NCBI RefSeq assembly: GCF_021278025.1
Contig: NZ_JAIBHJ010000008.1
Span: forward strand, 1 to 64,000
Length of the DNA stretch: 64,000 nucleotides
Reading direction: 5' to 3'
Origin: Motilimonas sp. E26
GTDB taxonomy: Bacteria; Pseudomonadota; Gammaproteobacteria; Enterobacterales; CBDFNC01
Numbering within the stretch: the stretch's first letter is position 1; each line of letters opens with the position of its first letter. Under the pieces are notes generated by a model. It was not told where the DNA came from, searched no databases, and saw nothing but the letters and a program-made list of their open reading frames with translations. The translations under genes and the position numbers were made by a program. Below, piece by piece: positions 26,769 to 57,113 of the stretch.

Positions 26769-27775
26769 TTGTGCTCCAATGGCTCATCTAATAACGCTAA
26801 TGACTTGCCGTCTAAAAACATAGCACGAAAATTTGGCACTTCAGCGCCCGTAATTAGTTGCCGATCTAGTGCCCAGCGAGCTTGAGTATGAAGATTTGAT
26901 AGCAGAGAATTGCCTAAAGACAAACGAAATAAATAGTCTTGCCAAGACCAATTTAACTGACGAAAAGAAATACCTAATGTTTCACTGACGAGCGTTTGGC
27001 TTTGCTTAGGATGCGTGATGAGATAAAGGTTCGCCTGCTCAAGCGCCGCTAGAATGCCTGAGATTGCTTCTGGCTTTCTATGCTTACCAGCTAAACCAAT
27101 GAGATTAAAAGATAAGTTATAAACGCCACGACTTGGCAGCTGCTCAACTTGCTCTGGCACCGTATTGGTAAGCTCATAACCATACGGCTCCCACACCGCA
27201 ATGGCATCCACCTCAGTCAGTAGCAACGCCTCCACTAACTGGGTTGGTTTATAATAAACACGCTCCACCGAACTCGAATCGATACCGTTTAAAATGAGTA
27301 AGCTATCAAGAAAAAATTCACTAGCACTGGCTTTAACTACCCCCACTTTTTGACCTTCAAGTGAGGTTAAATTTACAATCCCTCCCCCCTTTAAAGTAAG
27401 CAGTTTTACATCATTGTCTGATTCAACAAATGAAGAAATCAGCCTAAGTTCAGGCTGAGTGAAGCTATTAAACATAAATACCGTTTCGGATGCTGTCGCA
27501 AAGTCTACTTCGTGATTAAGTAACATTTCCATGCATTTATGACCGCCAAAACAGGGCACTAAAACGACCGCTAAATCTTGTTGTGAAAATAAACGCTTAC
27601 TCTGTGCAATAAAAAAAGGTGAAGAAAGCGGCGTTTGTGAAACAGCAATACGAATAATTGGCGCATTAGAAGGTTCACGAAGCGAATCAGAGCCAATAGC
27701 ACGCCCATCAACCAACCACCACAATAGCGCTGTAAGCAAAACGATTCCCAACAATGTTGTGGCGACTTTTATCAT
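26765..27775 (-). CDS. Membrane-anchored substrate-binding protein (NMT1/SsuA-like)
   Basis: A 336 aa periplasmic protein with an N-terminal hydrophobic anchor (about 5-22) and no lipobox. The body looks like an ABC-type type-2 periplasmic binding protein of the NMT1/SsuA group (IRIAVSQTPLSSPFFIA, then VGVVKASASEFFLD and DAIAVWEPYG). No transporter permease or ATPase gene is nearby. Instead it overlaps a diguanylate cyclase gene, so a sensory role is more likely than uptake. The ligand is unknown. Confidence 0.82.
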   Translation of the reverse strand: MIKVATTLLGIVLLTALLWWLVDGRAIGSDSLREPSNAPIIRIAVSQTPLSSPFFIAQSKRLFSQQDLAVVLVPCFGGHKCMEMLLNHEVDFATASETVFMFNSFTQPELRLISSFVESDNDVKLLTLKGGGIVNLTSLEGQKVGVVKASASEFFLDSLLILNGIDSSSVERVYYKPTQLVEALLLTEVDAIAVWEPYGYELTNTVPEQVEQLPSRGVYNLSFNLIGLAGKHRKPEAISGILAALEQANLYLITHPKQSQTLVSETLGISFRQLNWSWQDYLFRLSLGNSLLSNLHTQARWALDRQLITGAEVPNFRAMFLDGKSLALLDEPLEHK

Positions 27776-28196
27776 CCGTAAATTCTGTCTTGATTCATCA
27801 ATAAACTAGAGTGTAGTCAGAATTCCCTTTATGTTCCCCTTGATAGAACTATTAATTGAAATTATCAACCACAAGTTCTATGTCAACGCACATTCTCTGC
27901 CTCGACCTTGTTCATAAATGCACCAACAACAAACCGTCACACAGATCACAGAGTAAAGATAGTTTAATCACTAAAGGCCGATTCATGATTCAAGTTATGT
28001 TGATTTCAACTAACTTTATTTTGTTTTCTTTGATTCTGAGAGCCCCGATAAAAAAACTTTAATCAATTGTTTTGAAATAAGAAAAATTCATCAATTTCGT
28101 TCATTTCAGAAACAGTTTTTGATCAAGATCATCTCTTAGCGCAAGGAAGAGAGGATCATCAACAAATATAAAGTAATCACTCCTTAGGAGGTCAAT
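27776..28196. other. Intergenic region upstream of frdA
   Basis: This 421-base AT-rich region separates the divergent binding-protein gene and frdA. It holds the FNR-like box at 28119-28132 and a possible half CRP site (GATCACAG near 27944). An open frame at 27856-28062 has no good ribosome site and low-complexity content; I do not regard it as a gene. Confidence 0.5.
28119..28132. promoter_or_regulatory. Probable FNR box of the frd operon
   Basis: TTGATCAAGATCAT matches the FNR consensus TTGATNNNNATCAA at nine of ten positions. It is 65 bases before the frdA start, consistent with anaerobic activation of fumarate reductase, which is well known in enterobacteria. Confidence 0.65.
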
Positions 28197-29993
28197 GTGG
28201 AAATCATAAAAACGGACGTTGCAATTATTGGTGCAGGAGGAGGTGGTTTACGCGCCGCCATTGCCGCGGCAGAAGCGAATCCAGAATTAGAAATTGCTTT
28301 GATTTCTAAAGTTTACCCAATGCGCAGCCATACTGTCGCCGCCGAAGGAGGGGCCGCAGGCGTAGTTCAAGAGCACGATTCTCTCGACAACCACTTTAAC
28401 GATACCGTCTCTGGCGGCGATTGGCTTTGTGATCAAGATACTGTCGAATACTTTGTCGAAAATGCCACTCGACAGCTTACTCAGCTAGAGCATTGGGGTT
28501 GTCCCTGGAGTCGTAAGGAAGATGGTAAAATCAATGTTCGTGCCTTTGGCGGAATGAAAATTGAGCGCACTTGGTTTGCTGCCGACAAGTCTGGCTTCCA
28601 CATGCTTCACACCTTATTTCAAACTTCAATAAAGTATCCCTCAATCAAGCGATTTGATGAGCATTTTTGTCTCGATTTATTAGTATTTGATGGCAAGGTA
28701 CAAGGGGCTGTACTACTTGATATTGCAGAAGGGATTACCCGTGTGATCCATGCTAAAACCGTGATTGTTGCCACCGGCGGTGCAGGCCGCGTTTACACAT
28801 ATAACACCAATGGTGGCATAGTTACGGGTGATGGCATGAGCATGTGTTACCGTCACGGCGTCCCACTACGTGATATGGAGTTTGTGCAGTATCATCCTAC
28901 CGGATTACCTGGCTCAGGCATTTTAATGACGGAAGGCTGCCGCGGCGAAGGCGGCATTTTGGTCAATAAAGACGGCTATCGCTACTTACAAGATTACGGC
29001 TTAGGGCCGGAAATACCCGTAGGTAAAACTAAGAATAAACACATGGAGCTTGGCCCGCGCGATCGCCTTAGCCAATGCTTTTGGCAAGAACAGCAACAAG
29101 GCCGTGTTATATCAACTAAGCGTGGCGATGTCGTTCACCTTGATTTACGCCATCTTGGCGAAGAAAAAATTAACGAACGCTTACCTTTCATCCGTGAATT
29201 AGCAAAAGCCTATGTCGGTGTTGATCCTGTTCATGAGCCCATTCCTGTTCGTCCTACTGTGCATTACACCATGGGCGGTATTGAAACCGATGCTAAAACT
29301 GCAACCCGCTTACCGGGCTTATATGCTGTTGGTGAATGCGCCTCCAGCGGCTTACATGGTGCCAATCGTTTGGGCTCAAACTCATTAACAGAACTGGTTG
29401 TGTTTGGTGAAGTCGCAGGCCAACAGGCCGCTAAATTCGCGCAAGAAAATAAGCACAGTGCAATAGCTAAAGTGCGGGATGCGGCAAAAGCAGTTATTGA
29501 TAAAGCAGAAGCCTTATTACACAGCGAGGGGACTGAGAGCATAGCCAATATCCGTCGAGAAATGGGCGATTGCATGGAGGCGGGTGTCGGTATTTATCGC
29601 ACTGAAACATCGATGCAACAAGCAATAGACAAATTAGCGGAACTAAAACAGCGGTATAAAAACATTAAGATCAGCGACAAGTCTAGTGTCTTTAATACCG
29701 AGCTGTTATACGCCATTGAGCTAGGCTACCTACTTGATACTGCTGAAGCTATGGCTCATAGCGCTATTTTACGCAAAGAATCCCGTGGCTCTCATCAACG
29801 TATTGACGGTTATGAAAAACGCGATGATGAAAACTATCTGACCCATTCACTGGCTTTTTATAACCCAGATAAAGCCCCCACTATTGACTATGCCAGTGTC
29901 ACCATCACAAAAAGCCAACCAGCTGAGCGAGTTTATGGCGCCGCCTCAGACGCGCAAGATGCAGCTAAAGCAGCAGAGGTGAAGCATGACTAA
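28197..29993 (+). CDS. frdA: Fumarate reductase flavoprotein subunit
   Basis: FrdA reduces fumarate to succinate on the cytoplasmic face in anaerobic respiration. The 598 aa protein has the FAD-binding [13 protein letters not shown] near residue 12, the flavin-linking His in [10 protein letters not shown] (His45), and active-site motifs HPTGLPGSG and [11 protein letters not shown]. The start is GTG at 28197, with AGGAGG at 28186-28191; the overlapping ATG at 28195 hits a stop at once. It heads the frdABCD operon and overlaps frdB by eight bases. Confidence 0.97.
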
Positions 29994-30723
29994 CCCAATA
30001 ATCGAAATTGACATTTTACGTTATCGGCCAGAGCAAGATACGACGCCGTTTATCCAAACTTATAGCATTCCATACGACGAAGAAATGTCGATCTTGGAAG
30101 CCTTGCAATATATTAAAGATGAACTTGATGGCAGCATTAGCTTTCGCTGGTCTTGTCGGATGGCAATTTGCGGTAGCTGCGGCATGATGATCGATGGCGT
30201 ACCTAAGCTGGGTTGTAAAGCTTTTTTACGTGACTATTACCCTAATAAAATCAAACTTGAACCACTGGCCAACTTTCCCATTGAGCGGGATTTAGTCGTG
30301 GTGATGGATGATTTTATTAAAAAACTTGAAAGTATTAAGCCATATATCATTCCAGCCCAAGAAAAATCCATTGATGATGGTGAATACATTCAAACCCCAG
30401 AGCAGATGGCTAAATATAAGCAGTTTTCCATGTGTATTAACTGCGGATTATGTTACTCGGCTTGCCCACAGTATGCCCTTAACACTGAATTCACGGGGCC
30501 AGCGGCGTTAGCTTTATTGGCACGTTACAACCGTGATTCACGCGATGCCGGCAGCGCCCAGCGCATGGAAATAGTGAATGCGGAAGAAGGCGTTTGGGGT
30601 TGTACCTTTGTTGGTTACTGCTCGCAAGTGTGTCCAAAAGGTGTCGATCCGGCGGCCGCCATCCAGCTATTTAAAGTCGAAAGTGCCAAAGATTACCTGA
30701 TTGGTATGTTTAAACCAGATTAA
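29986..30723 (+). CDS. frdB: Fumarate reductase iron-sulfur subunit
   Basis: FrdB carries electrons from menaquinol to FrdA. The 245 aa protein has the 2Fe-2S ligands in [10 protein letters not shown] and a distal Cys, then two ferredoxin-type motifs [13 protein letters not shown] and [17 protein letters not shown] that bind the 4Fe-4S and 3Fe-4S clusters. The length matches E. coli FrdB. It is followed by the repeat array and frdC. Confidence 0.97.
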
Positions 30724-30734
30724 AGGGTGGTGAC

Positions 30735-30833
30735 ATGAAGCGCACTTCAAACAAACGTAAACCCTATCAGCGCGAGTTAGCCGTTGTTAGTTCGGTTAGT
30801 ATGCTTAGAGCAAAGAGCACTGTATATGGGTAA
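30735..30833 (+). CDS. frdC-derived short leader ORF 1
   Basis: A 32-codon frame starts ATG AAG CGC ACT, 11 bases after the frdB stop and behind GGGTGG. It encodes NKRKPYQRELAVV, nearly the same as the N-terminus of FrdC (SKRKPYQRELPVD), then runs into unrelated sequence and stops. Its place and ribosome site are those expected of the original frdC start. Whether it is translated is not known; a remnant of duplication is the simplest reading. Confidence 0.5.
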   Translation: MKRTSNKRKPYQRELAVVSSVSMLRAKSTVYG

Positions 30834-31060
30834 TACAATGAGTAAAAGTAAACCCTATCAGCGTGAGTTAGCCGTTGTTAGTTCGTTAGTATGCTTAGAG
30901 CAAGGAGCACTGTATATGGGTAATACAATGAGTAAAAGTAAACCCTATCAGCGTGAGTTAGCCGCTGTTAGTTCGGTTAGTCCGTCTCAACTAAGGAATA
31001 CAGTATATGAATAATCCAGCAAGTAAACGTAAACCCTATCAGCGTGAACTGCCCGTGGAT
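30756..31060 (+). repeat. Tandem 90-91 bp array made from the frdC start region
   Basis: The core AAACCCTATCAGCG occurs at 30759, 30850, 30940 and 31031, giving spacings of 91, 90 and 91. Units 2 and 3 (30801-30890 and 30891-30980) differ by only two substitutions and one inserted base. Each unit holds a ribosome-site-like stretch (CAAGGAGCAC), a start codon (ATGGGTAATACAATG) and codons for SK(S/R)KPYQREL. The last unit runs into the real frdC. The array therefore repeats the translation start and first 16 codons or so of frdC within the operon. Confidence 0.9.
30826..31014 (+). CDS. frdC-derived leader ORF 2/3
   Basis: A 62-codon frame beginning MGNTMSKSKPYQREL. Because the unit is 90 bases it reads through two units in frame (the KPYQREL segment appears twice) and stops at TAA 31012-31014, overlapping the frdC start at 31007. 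The overlap could couple frdC translation to this frame. A longer in-frame TTG start exists at 30784. Function as a protein is unlikely; function as a leader is possible. Confidence 0.45.
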   Translation: MGNTMSKSKPYQRELAVVSSLVCLEQGALYMGNTMSKSKPYQRELAAVSSVSPSQLRNTVYE

Positions 31061-31408
31061 TGGTGGTTGAAACATGCTTTCTATACTAAATATATGATTC
31101 GTGAAGGAACCAGTATCGCCATCACTATTTACAGCTGTATCTTGGCATGGGGTTTATTACGACTATCCCAAGGGCCTGAGGCTTGGCAAGGATGGCTTAA
31201 TGCTCTACAGCACCCTATTGCCGTCCTGTTTCATATTCTCGCTTTAGCATTCGCTCTATATCACACGGTAACTTGGTTTGATTTAGCTCCAAAAGCCGCC
31301 GATATTTGGCTCAAAGGAAAGAAGCTAGATGATAAATTCATCGTCATCGGCCATTACGTAGGCTTTGTCTTAGCAACCTTGGCCGCTCTGATAATTATTA
31401 CGCTATAG
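31007..31408 (+). CDS. frdC: Fumarate reductase membrane anchor subunit C
   Basis: FrdC binds the complex to the membrane and helps form the quinone site. The 133 aa protein starts NNPASKRKPYQREL and has three membrane helices (about 34-56, 66-88, 110-131), with the family motif GPEAWQGW. The ATG at 31007 follows AAGGAATACAGTAT. Upstream, its own start region is repeated three times, see the array entry. It is followed by frdD after eight bases. Confidence 0.95.
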   Translation: MNNPASKRKPYQRELPVDWWLKHAFYTKYMIREGTSIAITIYSCILAWGLLRLSQGPEAWQGWLNALQHPIAVLFHILALAFALYHTVTWFDLAPKAADIWLKGKKLDDKFIVIGHYVGFVLATLAALIIITL

Positions 31409-31416
31409 GAGGCGTT

Positions 31417-31794
31417 ATGAGTCATACCGATTCAACTAAATTAAAGCGCTCTCACGAGCCCGTATTTTGGGGATTATTTGGCGCTGGTGGCATGCTCACC
31501 GCCTTTTTAACGCCAGTAATGATACTAATTACCGGTATTTTAGTGCCATTGGCTATTATTAGCCCAAAAGCACTTAACTATGAGCGTGTACATGGTTTTG
31601 CTACCTCTTGGTACGGTGCGGCTATTTTATTGGTACTGATCGCACTACCACTCTGGCATACCTTACATCGTATTTTTCACGGCTTACACGATATTGGTGT
31701 TAAACGGGGGCGAGATTGGCAACAAGTGATCTGTTATGGCGCCGCTTTTGCTATCTCAGTTTTTGTCTTTACCTTGCTACTTCAGATGCTTTAA
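31417..31794 (+). CDS. frdD: Fumarate reductase membrane anchor subunit D
   Basis: FrdD is the second quinol-site anchor. The 125 aa protein has three helices and the typical start KRSHEPVFWGLFGAGGM, with the conserved LPLWHTLHRIFHGLHD. AGGAGGCG lies before the ATG at 31417. It is the last gene of frdABCD. Confidence 0.95.
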   Translation: MSHTDSTKLKRSHEPVFWGLFGAGGMLTAFLTPVMILITGILVPLAIISPKALNYERVHGFATSWYGAAILLVLIALPLWHTLHRIFHGLHDIGVKRGRDWQQVICYGAAFAISVFVFTLLLQML

Positions 31795-31825
31795 TTAACA
31801 CAAAGCTCAATTACCTCCTTTTACA

Positions 31826-31855
31826 CAGTAAAGTCCAAGGCTTTGGGCTTTACTG
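31826..31855 (+). terminator. Hairpin after frdD
   Basis: CAGTAAAGTCC (826-836) pairs with GGGCTTTACTG (845-855), with one wobble and an eight-base loop. No U-run follows, so it may be a terminator or a 3'-end stabilising hairpin. Confidence 0.55.
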
Positions 31856-32022
31856 CCGTACTTATCATGTCAAAAATAAACTATAACCAACTGTTTAAAA
31901 TATAGTTTTCAAACATTAATTTAATTTAATCTCTATAGGTAAGTTTTTTTGCGCTAAAAACTAAGCAACTTTGTTTTTAGGGTATATGCTATTGAGAGTG
32001 GCCAATAAGTAGTAATGAAATT

Positions 32023-32769
32023 ATGAATGATTCTCAAGCTAATGTTTTTACTTTTAACGTTAAGGCAGACACTGGGCAGGATCCCCTTGCACAACCGCAT
32101 TCTCAAATGACTAAACGCTTAAGTGCGCTATATGAAATCTCTGAACTTGGTAAAACTGTGTTGCCATTAAATCAGGTTTTTCACGCTTTCCATCAAGCCC
32201 TAAAAAAAGCCCTTTATGCCGATAACATGTTATTAGCACTGTATAATTCTGAACGTAGTCATATCCATATACCCTATTTCGTTGATCAGGCTGACGAAAA
32301 TAGCGAATTTACCGGTTTGATACCCGCGAGAGAGTTTATTGAATCGACCTTGGTTGGCTATATTTTTCGCCGCAAGCAAGCTTTTCTAGCGGATAGTGAA
32401 AAACTACAAAGACTGAAAGAATCCGGTGCTATCACCTTTCGAGGCACGCAAAGCGAGAGCTGGCTAGGTTTGCCTTTAGTATTTCAAGATGAATTACTAG
32501 GTGTGTTAGTGCTACAGAGTTACGACCCTGCAAAACTATATAAAAATGAGGATTTAGAATTTTTAAACTACGCAGGTAATCAGCTGTCAGCGGTCCTAGG
32601 CTATCAATTGGCACAAACATCACACAACGCTTATGTTGAGCAGCTTGAAGATCTAATTGATTGGCAAATAGATGAAATAAAACATATAAGCAAAAAAGCG
32701 GTGAAATTAGAAGCCTTTCAAAAGGCAGAAACGAGCCCGAGAGCAATGAAGGAAAAAGTAACGCATTAA
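32023..32769 (+). CDS. GAF domain protein
   Basis: A 248 aa soluble protein. Residues about 40-205 form a GAF-type sensory domain (LYEISELGKTVLPLNQVFHAFHQALKKAL, in part, then WLGLPLVFQDELLGVLVLQSY). The last 45 residues are a charged helix (WQIDEIKHISKKAVKLEAFQ). No output domain is attached, so it may act on a partner in trans. The ligand is not predictable. Confidence 0.8.
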   Translation: MNDSQANVFTFNVKADTGQDPLAQPHSQMTKRLSALYEISELGKTVLPLNQVFHAFHQALKKALYADNMLLALYNSERSHIHIPYFVDQADENSEFTGLIPAREFIESTLVGYIFRRKQAFLADSEKLQRLKESGAITFRGTQSESWLGLPLVFQDELLGVLVLQSYDPAKLYKNEDLEFLNYAGNQLSAVLGYQLAQTSHNAYVEQLEDLIDWQIDEIKHISKKAVKLEAFQKAETSPRAMKEKVTH

Positions 32770-54863: not shown

Positions 54864-57113
54864 TTAAACAGTTTGCGGCTTTTGCTTAACTGGACTTAAC
54901 TTGGTCTTTTCGGCATAACCGTAATATTCATGATAATTACCATGACCGCCGTACTTAGCTGCTTTTTTAAGATTTAGGCGATTAAGAATAACACCATCAA
55001 TTTTGATTCCTTGCTGCACAAGCTTAGCCAAAGTTTGCTTAACCACACCAGTACGAGTGTGCTCTGCACGTGTTACTAAAATACAAGAATCCACCTTTTG
55101 TGACAGCAAATAAGCATCACTTACCGCCAAACAAGGAGGGGTGTCTAACACTATTTTTGAATAACGTTGCTTGAGCTTATCGAGTAGCATAGTAAAACGC
55201 TCAGATGCGAGTAGTTCTTGTGGGTTTGATGGCACTAAACCAGCGGACAATATATCCAACCCAGAAACCTCATCTTTAACCAAACACTCTTCAAATGTAT
55301 GAGTTCCAGCTATCAAGTTAGCCAACCCTGGCTGCGCAGCCGATAGCTCAAAACGGCGACCAATCGTAGGTCTACGTAAATCACAATCAATAAGAATGGT
55401 TTTTTCCAGTTGCGCTAAACCAAAAGCTAAGTTAATGGCCGAAGTCGTTTTACCTTCATTTGGCTCCGACGAGGTCACAATCACAGACTGATTATCATTA
55501 TTCATATTCGACAACATATAACTGGTTCGAATGGTACGCACCCCTTCAGAAAACGCACGTTGCTTTTCATCATAATACAGGTAGGTAGAAACCTTGTTTT
55601 TCTTCGCTTTCACCAACGGTAATACGCCCAGTAGGCTGACCCCTAAAGTGCTTTCAACTTGCTTAGCACTAACAAACGTATCATTTAACGCTTCTAAGAC
55701 AAAAGCCACGACACAAGCAAAACCAAAAGACACGACAAAAGCCATAACAATAATTAACTTTCGATTTGGAGCACTTGGTAATAAAGGAGGGTGAGCCTCA
55801 TCAGTAAATCGCGCAATGGTTGAGCCAAAATCACTAGAAGCCGATGTCTCTTTATAGCGATTTAGAAATAGATCATACAGCTGTTTATTTGAGTCAACTT
55901 CGCGCTGAAACTCTGAGTATTTGGCAGTTTTAACCGTCAGGTCTTGAAACTCTGCTTTACGGCTTTCAATTTCACTGCGAATGCTATTTTCAGCCTGTCT
56001 AGCCGCGGTCACTTCCGAACCGATCCCTTTAACCAACTGGCGTAATTCACGATCCAAGTTGACTTTAGCACTTGCCAATTCAGCCTCTGCTGCTTTCATT
56101 TTCGGATGCTTCGGACCATAACGCTTCGTCAAGTCTGAAATTTTACGCTCAGCCTCTGAAACCGCCAATTTGACATCACGAATGACAGGATGATTGCTAA
56201 TTTCAGGAATTGCTGATACTTGCGTAACATTTCGTGTGCTGCTTTGCGCTAAATTATATAAAGATTCAGCGGCAACACGGCGATCTCTCGCAATATTTAA
56301 CTGTGAAGTGAGCTCATTCAATTCTTGAGATGCAAGCCCGCCAACACCAGCAATATCAACTAACCCCTCCTGTTTTAAGAAGTTTTGTAATTTAGATTCT
56401 GACGCCTGTAATTCAGCTTTTAACGTAGCAAGACGGTCATTCAGCCAACCAGAAGCTTTATTGGCAACTTGCAACGTTGCATCTAAATTACTTTCTATAT
56501 AAACATTACCTACTTCATTAGCAATCTGAGCTGCCAATTCAGGGCTAAAACTATTAAAGGTGATATCCACTAACTGCGTTTTACGTACTGGCGCAATAGA
56601 GAGATTTTGCTTAAATTGCCCCAATACTCGTTGCTCTAAACGATATATATTTTCTTCAGTGGATAACTCATTCACTGTGTTTGGCGCTTTATTTAAGAAT
56701 GGCAGCAAATTAGATATTGCTGCCGAAAAATCGAATTGCTTTTCTTTTTCCGCCAACTCGGGGTTAAACTCAGGATGATTAATAAGATCCATCTTTCTAA
56801 TCACAGCTAAAGCAATACTGTCTGATTTTAAAATTTCAAACTGAGTATAAAAGTATTCATTAATCCGCGTATCTAAGCCATATACTTCTTCAACGGACAC
56901 AGCTTTTGCTTGTTTCGATTCAATTAATAACGTTGCCGTTGCGGTATAAATCGAAGGTTTAGACTTCGCAACAAAACTAGCAGCAACCGTCACAATGAGT
57001 GAAAAAAACAAAATACTCCATTTATACTTTAACAACGTTAACCAAATTTGTTTAATATCGATCAACTGTTCCATTTGAGGCTTGTCTGCCGCAGCAGATA
57101 CTTTCTGTTCCAT
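54864..57113 (-). CDS. Polysaccharide co-polymerase/tyrosine autokinase (Wzc, VpsO-like)
   Basis: A 749 aa inner-membrane protein. The N-terminus has a Wzz chain-length domain between two membrane segments (about 31-50 and 430-452) with a long coiled coil. The C-terminus is a BY-kinase: Walker A SSEPNEGKTT, Walker A' LIDCDLRRP, Walker B VLDTPP, and a Tyr-rich tail (YGGHGNYHEYYGYAE) that is autophosphorylated. It controls polymer length with the phosphatase CpsB. The position equals vpsO in the V. cholerae vps-II cluster. Confidence 0.93.
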   Translation of the reverse strand: MEQKVSAAADKPQMEQLIDIKQIWLTLLKYKWSILFFSLIVTVAASFVAKSKPSIYTATATLLIESKQAKAVSVEEVYGLDTRINEYFYTQFEILKSDSIALAVIRKMDLINHPEFNPELAEKEKQFDFSAAISNLLPFLNKAPNTVNELSTEENIYRLEQRVLGQFKQNLSIAPVRKTQLVDITFNSFSPELAAQIANEVGNVYIESNLDATLQVANKASGWLNDRLATLKAELQASESKLQNFLKQEGLVDIAGVGGLASQELNELTSQLNIARDRRVAAESLYNLAQSSTRNVTQVSAIPEISNHPVIRDVKLAVSEAERKISDLTKRYGPKHPKMKAAEAELASAKVNLDRELRQLVKGIGSEVTAARQAENSIRSEIESRKAEFQDLTVKTAKYSEFQREVDSNKQLYDLFLNRYKETSASSDFGSTIARFTDEAHPPLLPSAPNRKLIIVMAFVVSFGFACVVAFVLEALNDTFVSAKQVESTLGVSLLGVLPLVKAKKNKVSTYLYYDEKQRAFSEGVRTIRTSYMLSNMNNDNQSVIVTSSEPNEGKTTSAINLAFGLAQLEKTILIDCDLRRPTIGRRFELSAAQPGLANLIAGTHTFEECLVKDEVSGLDILSAGLVPSNPQELLASERFTMLLDKLKQRYSKIVLDTPPCLAVSDAYLLSQKVDSCILVTRAEHTRTGVVKQTLAKLVQQGIKIDGVILNRLNLKKAAKYGGHGNYHEYYGYAEKTKLSPVKQKPQTV

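Follow-up and report, generated by a model that had tools for sequence, protein, structure and literature searches.

The window analysed here (64,000 nt of Motilimonas sp. E26 DNA) carries the fumarate reductase genes frdA, frdB, frdC and frdD. The gap between frdB and frdC is 283 nt long, and most of it is occupied by three additional versions of the start of frdC (30735-31006). Each copy comprises a ribosome site, an ATG and codons for KPYQREL, and all three are located ahead of the true frdC start. The features of the operon and of the array are as follows.

28197..29993, + strand: frdA, flavoprotein subunit of fumarate reductase (ORF; Pfam FAD_binding_2 and Succ_DH_flav_C)
29986..30723, + strand: frdB, iron-sulfur subunit (ORF; Pfam Fer2_3 and Fer4 families)
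frdA/frdB junction, + strand: frdB start overlapping the frdA stop by 8 nt, ATGACTAA (read from the sequence)
30735..30833, + strand: mini-ORF 1, the first copy of the start module (32 aa, MKRTSNKRKPYQRELAVVSSVSMLRAKSTVYG; SD-like AAGGGTGGT)
30759..30849, + strand: repeat segment 1 (91 nt, KPY-to-KPY register)
30826..31014, + strand: mini-ORF 2/3 (62 aa; a single frame across units 2 and 3)
30850..30939, + strand: repeat segment 2 (90 nt; three differences from segment 1)
30916..30918, + strand: ATG of the third start module (SD-like AAGGAG upstream)
30940..31030, + strand: repeat segment 3 (91 nt; leads into frdC)
31007..31408, + strand: frdC, membrane anchor subunit (Pfam Fumarate_red_C, E 2.7e-48; SD-like ACTAAGGAA)
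31417..31794, + strand: frdD, membrane anchor subunit (Pfam Fumarate_red_D, E 5.7e-46)

The sequence AAACCCTAT (codons for KPY) was found at 30759, 30850, 30940 and 31031, i.e. with spacing of 91, 90 and 91 nt, in agreement with a preliminary description of this DNA in which the start region of frdC was said to be repeated three extra times. The head-to-tail repeat is above chance (score of the start-to-upstream alignment 35 versus at most 16 in 200 shuffles). Tandem Repeats Finder listed two arrays in the 64 kb, one of period 12 and the frd array, delineated at 30753-31047 (period 91, 3.3 copies, 88% matches, score 434). The imperfect 12-nt repeat, with 3.9 copies, is situated at 55698-55744, inside the minus-strand ORF 54864-57113, whose product presumably resembles polysaccharide chain-length or tyrosine-kinase proteins.

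Only three places distinguish segment 1 from segment 2 (35/36 identical positions in the core, 53/55 in the linker); the earlier claim of a recent expansion thus holds for at least one unit. Segment 3 has a core almost identical to those of the other segments (34/36 and 35/36) and a diverged linker; linkers 1 and 3 are identical in 38 of 56 columns and different in 18. Because segment 2 is one base shorter, units 2 and 3 share one frame, and the ORF 30826-31014, already described as reading through both units into an 8-nt overlap with the frdC ATG, was confirmed.

Mini-ORF 1 begins 11 nt past the frdB stop, a distance equal to that of frdC in M. pumila. It overlaps mini-ORF 2/3 (ATG at 30826) by 8 nt, ATGGGTAA, and the stop of mini-ORF 2/3 (31014) overlaps the frdC ATG (31007) by 8 nt as well, ATGAATAA. 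The best predicted Shine-Dalgarno pairing with the 16S tail has energies of −7.5, −2.1, −7.7 and −6.0 kcal/mol for units 1, 2, 3 and frdC, respectively, with unit 2 being weak; there are several candidate ribosome entry points, as had been suggested. Neither mini-ORF 1 nor mini-ORF 2/3 matches a Pfam family. By RNA fold, listed sites and Rfam families, no sign of an attenuator-type leader was detected in the array: the RNA fold of 30700-31060 was no better than those of shuffled sequences (91 of 100 at least as stable, z-score +1.24), no promoter-like or terminator-like sites are listed in 30735-31007, and no Rfam family reached the gathering score in 27700-32100. The array was found at a single place in the genome (84 contigs, 4,625,348 bases). 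A dispersed element was rejected, as a 21-nt piece of the core (up to 3 mismatches) occurs in the four Motilimonas genomes searched only in the array (three places) and in M. cestriensis (one place).

All four Motilimonas genomes compared (one genome per species) have frdC. The number of extra units is zero in M. eburnea, zero in M. pumila, one in M. cestriensis and three in the window; a copy number uniform in all relatives, which the preliminary description had named as evidence against its own reading, was not observed. The upstream ORF of M. cestriensis, MNNTLYEHKPYQRELAVVSSSKLRSAVYE, overlaps frdC by the same 8 nt, ATGAATAA, as in the window. The start codon and KPYQREL codons ascribed to each unit were confirmed, with KPYQREL unchanged in the three window units and in M. 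cestriensis; the N- and C-terminal parts of the mini-ORFs are unconserved within Motilimonas. The duplicated segment would include the frdC ribosome site and the first ∼15-20 codons. From the near-identity of segments 1 and 2, together with the 38 of 56 columns shared by linkers 1 and 3, we infer as the simplest order a tandem duplication in an ancestor common with M. cestriensis, predating the split, followed by two further duplications in the lineage of the window, of which the second is recent.

Between the window and M. cestriensis the 36-nt core has 0-1 differences, compared with 15/35 in the 5′ flank and 18/56 in the linker; given the pooled divergence of 4-fold sites (0.30), the chance of at most one difference is 5e-5. 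However, of 47 intergenic regions compared for these two species, 36 contain a 36-nt window with at most one difference (one of five among the regions diverged by at least 25%), and 66 of 1070 such windows in frdB and frdC are without any difference. With these sequences equally conserved, the constrained core was rejected as evidence of selection. Differences from M. cestriensis at 4-fold sites amount to 8/62 in frdD, 33/91 in frdB and 19/49 in frdC; a recombination tract could possibly begin near frdD (31417-31794).

The frdB-frdC junctions were examined at 102 loci, and the gene pair was recognized by motifs in 93 of them and not in nine. Gaps shorter than 25 nt, too short for a copy, were observed at 65 of the 93 junctions; the other 28 were subjected to a shuffle test, which nine passed. 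Four of the nine (L022, L034, L037 and L045) were dropped as false positives, as their short gaps overlapped the compared segment. The five real arrays are those of the window, M. cestriensis (L003) and three Psychromonas genomes designated G206 (L036), G109 (L042) and G250 (L108). A match to frdC was present in 142 of the 247 genomes sampled across the order; 90 of the 142 were examined (the best 30 as loci plus 60 fetched), with the remaining 52, mostly weaker matches, outside the junction survey. The Psychromonas arrays are located as follows.

L036 (G206), frdB stop at 1264, reverse strand: three extra units
L042 (G109), 1342-1510: two extra units
L108 (G250), 1255-1500: one extra unit

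Among 24 Psychromonas genomes, 22 have frdC; all 22 junctions were read and three have arrays, while the array is absent from the junction in 19. The related genomes G109 (one contig, 4,559,598 bases) and G206 have a common unit of ∼76 nt, and all five of their mini-ORFs are 23 codons long. The first Psychromonas unit is without the KPYQREL motif (MPKGKSY...). G250 has a different duplication, of 157 nt. A DNA query with the G109 array had matches in 18 of 41 relatives of G206, and the whole query was matched only in G109 and G206. In a tree of frdB and frdC (39 rows) the array label needs three changes, of which the starred branches force two. Their unlike periods (76 versus 157 nt) and unlike linkers speak for independent origins of the two Psychromonas arrays, though the tree alone does not force it. 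Start duplication at this junction would have arisen at least once in Psychromonas, and twice as judged by period and linker.

The next family (f2) has frdC in 10 of 11 genomes and an array in none of the 10. At three loci of this family (L027, L032 and L033) the frdB-frdC gap has short repeated pieces around GTGAGGAGTAGCAATG, for which the shuffle test was not significant; these pieces may be duplications of that ribosome site on a smaller scale.

For comparison with other gene starts, a strong repeat was defined as an ungapped repeat scoring at least 30. The background consisted of 642,678 bases from three genomes, with 497 gene starts tested (the window frdC included); the set of 35 frd loci (the window excluded) provided 129 gene starts. 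Strong repeats were detected at 3 of 497 background starts, namely at the window frdC and at two G109 starts where the repeat did not cover the start codon, and at 3 of 129 starts in the frd loci, all three of them frdC (M. cestriensis was under the threshold). Setting frdC (3/35) against ∼590 other starts (496 + 94, on the assumption of one tested frdC start per locus) with one positive allowed, we obtained a Fisher p of 0.0006, or 0.009 if the two Psychromonas origins are counted once each. This enrichment at frdC, against a background of only three genomes, is suggestive of a hotspot or selection: a neutral, non-specific array would not be expected to originate several times at one junction.

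Tandem Repeats Finder, when run on the 35 frd loci, picked up only two of the arrays, in L036 and L042, and overlooked the ones in L108 and L003; for this reason its background counts are not fully sensitive. In a 320-kb sample of G109 it reported five arrays with periods of 63-243 nt (L134 450-592 and 11204-11500, L136 18668-18878, L137 12719-13370 and L139 15981-16292) and one with period 30 (L130); one array, that of frdC, was reported in ∼323 kb of Motilimonas. The G109 genome seems to be rich in tandem repeats.

The spacings between successive stops and starts are +11, −8 and −8 in the window, +11 and −8 in M. cestriensis, +10, +4 and +4 in G109, and +10, +5, +4 and +5 in G206; all steps lie within −8 to +11 nt in four of the five arrays. 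The spacing of coupled gene pairs (an overlap or few nt) is therefore present in the window and missing in G250, where the gap is unbridged: the first start is 86 nt after frdB and the 18-aa mini-ORF ends 100 nt before frdC. Simulated start duplications (51-111 nt, 10,000 trials) produced the coupled geometry in 31% of cases; the others had an early stop (35%) or were fused or stopped later (35%). Given that 31% of random duplications have such spacing, the coupled geometry is no proof of function. An SD site is predicted at frdC in all five array genomes (−5.8 to −10.0 kcal/mol).

Six of the eight changes in Psychromonas unit A alter a residue, versus 7 of 45 over the final 600 nt of frdB; the comparison of G206 units B or C with G109 unit B gave three of five. 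NG86 values of dN/dS are 0.098/0.245 for unit A (23 codons) and 0.014/0.393 for frdB. By these counts constraint on the Psychromonas mini-ORFs is far weaker than on frdB, though an ORF as short as unit A may be under some. The linkers were compared with the end of frdB, the body of frdC and frdD as possible sources (24 comparisons for Motilimonas, 12 for Psychromonas). No match stood firmly above shuffles; there were two nominal hits (p 0.006 and 0.038) among the 36 tests.

The explanation that we favour, with rather more confidence than doubt, is recurrent tandem duplication that is tolerated and has a small net effect on FrdC, nearly neutral or mildly tuning, as opposed to an evolved control device. 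Every duplication would leave frdB and frdC intact and turn the upstream copies into mini-ORFs. Ribosomes would then proceed from frdB to mini-ORF 1 (+11 nt), to mini-ORF 2/3 (−8) and to frdC (−8), with frdC also open to direct entry at its own ribosome site; judging by the arrangement of starts and stops, the upstream starts are presumably used. The mini-ORFs would bridge an otherwise untranslated gap of 283 nt, so that a duplication could be tolerated with little net effect on FrdC. What would make the arrays tolerable is that every copy forms a complete start module and that the spacing, in four of the five, stays within −8 to +11 nt. In six gene pairs coupling was reported to be almost abolished at a separation of ∼20 nt (PMC10666635). 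A review places −8 nt among the enriched overlap spacings and cites a study where coupling was weaker with overlaps longer than −4 nt and did not fall up to +25 nt (PMC12548453).

Repeated selection of the arrays is an alternative to tolerated duplication: coupled start modules would raise or lower FrdCD relative to FrdAB, with the copy number as the setting, much as the preliminary description had proposed a possible change in the frdC:frdA ratio. It is suggested by recurrence at one junction, with two to three origins across two genera, by the excess of strong repeats at frdC relative to other starts and by the predicted SD site kept at frdC in all array genomes. Yet the conserved core is not special in comparison with other intergenic regions and frdB/frdC windows, the coupled geometry is common by chance, and most Psychromonas and half of the Motilimonas genomes with frdC have no array; we regard such selection as unlikely, if worth serious consideration. 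More doubtful is the general proposition that bacteria recurrently use start-duplication arrays to adjust how much is made from a single gene of an operon, the array acting as a serial ribosome relay in which the number of copies sets the FrdCD supply, with convergent evolution in Motilimonas and twice in Psychromonas. If the junction, on the other hand, duplicates often for reasons of its sequence, the arrays could be without any effect. Short repeats of the GTAAACGTAAACC type within the frdC start and the wide variation of the Psychromonas frdB-frdC gap (10-243 nt) would fit such a mutational hotspot, but no breakpoint homology was detected, the linkers matching no better than shuffles except for the two nominal hits, and we consider it improbable.

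The idea of a slippage-prone switch, put forward in the preliminary description, found no support. Fast change of unit number would have to turn frdC up or down, and one expansion is indeed recent and the number of units varies between species; still, judging by the sequence, no ON/OFF state arises, since neither the start nor the frame of frdC is affected when a unit is gained or lost, and linkers 1 and 3 differ enough for part of the array to be old. The units are also long, few and imperfect, unlike contingency repeats, and phase variation appears very unlikely. We give still less credence to an action of the mini-peptides themselves, e.g. as mimics of the FrdC N-terminus: against the unchanged KPYQREL in Motilimonas stand the unconserved flanking parts, the prevalence of residue-altering changes in the Psychromonas units, the motif-free first Psychromonas unit and the lack of Pfam matches to the window mini-ORFs. 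An ordinary Illumina read is longer than 60 nt, the length of the longest exact repeat found in the array, and a collapsed or invented array is for this reason unlikely. The units differ from one another, M. cestriensis, whose genome was assembled separately, has a homologous unit, and the single-contig G109 has an array of this kind that is unrelated; hence, even though the E26 assembly is apparently Illumina only (PMC13182010), an artefact of assembly is barely conceivable. The array is real and recurrent, and its effect is probably small.

Duplication of a gene start, with conversion of the copy into a mini-ORF ahead of the gene, is a simple and repeatable route to short overlapping ORFs in operons. 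Relatives with 0, 1, 2 and 3 extra units make measurable the effect of each step on the protein ratio of a multi-subunit enzyme, and the convergent origins suggested here make a modest repeat worth a bench test. For annotation the array is a warning: of four similar-looking starts, only the last is that of frdC itself. A limited literature search found no papers on duplicated gene starts of this kind.

Intergenic tandem repeats (VNTR) occur in bacteria, and the frd array resembles them in its tandem units of ∼90 nt and in a copy number differing by species; it differs in having a complete translation start in each unit and in occupying one place in the genome. Translated leader ORFs, such as attenuator leader peptides, are known upstream of genes. 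The mini-ORFs are like them in being short and in lying directly upstream of a gene, with an overlap, but the array is situated inside the operon and not at its head, is derived from frdC's own start and gave no unusual RNA structure in the fold and Rfam searches. Translational coupling by termination-reinitiation offers a further parallel: 8-nt stop/start overlaps are present at frdA/frdB, at mini-ORF 1/mini-ORF 2-3 and at mini-ORF 2-3/frdC, and the neighbouring genes encode subunits of one complex. Unlike in known coupled pairs, the putative partners here include mini-ORFs in series, which derive from duplication of the start of the gene downstream.
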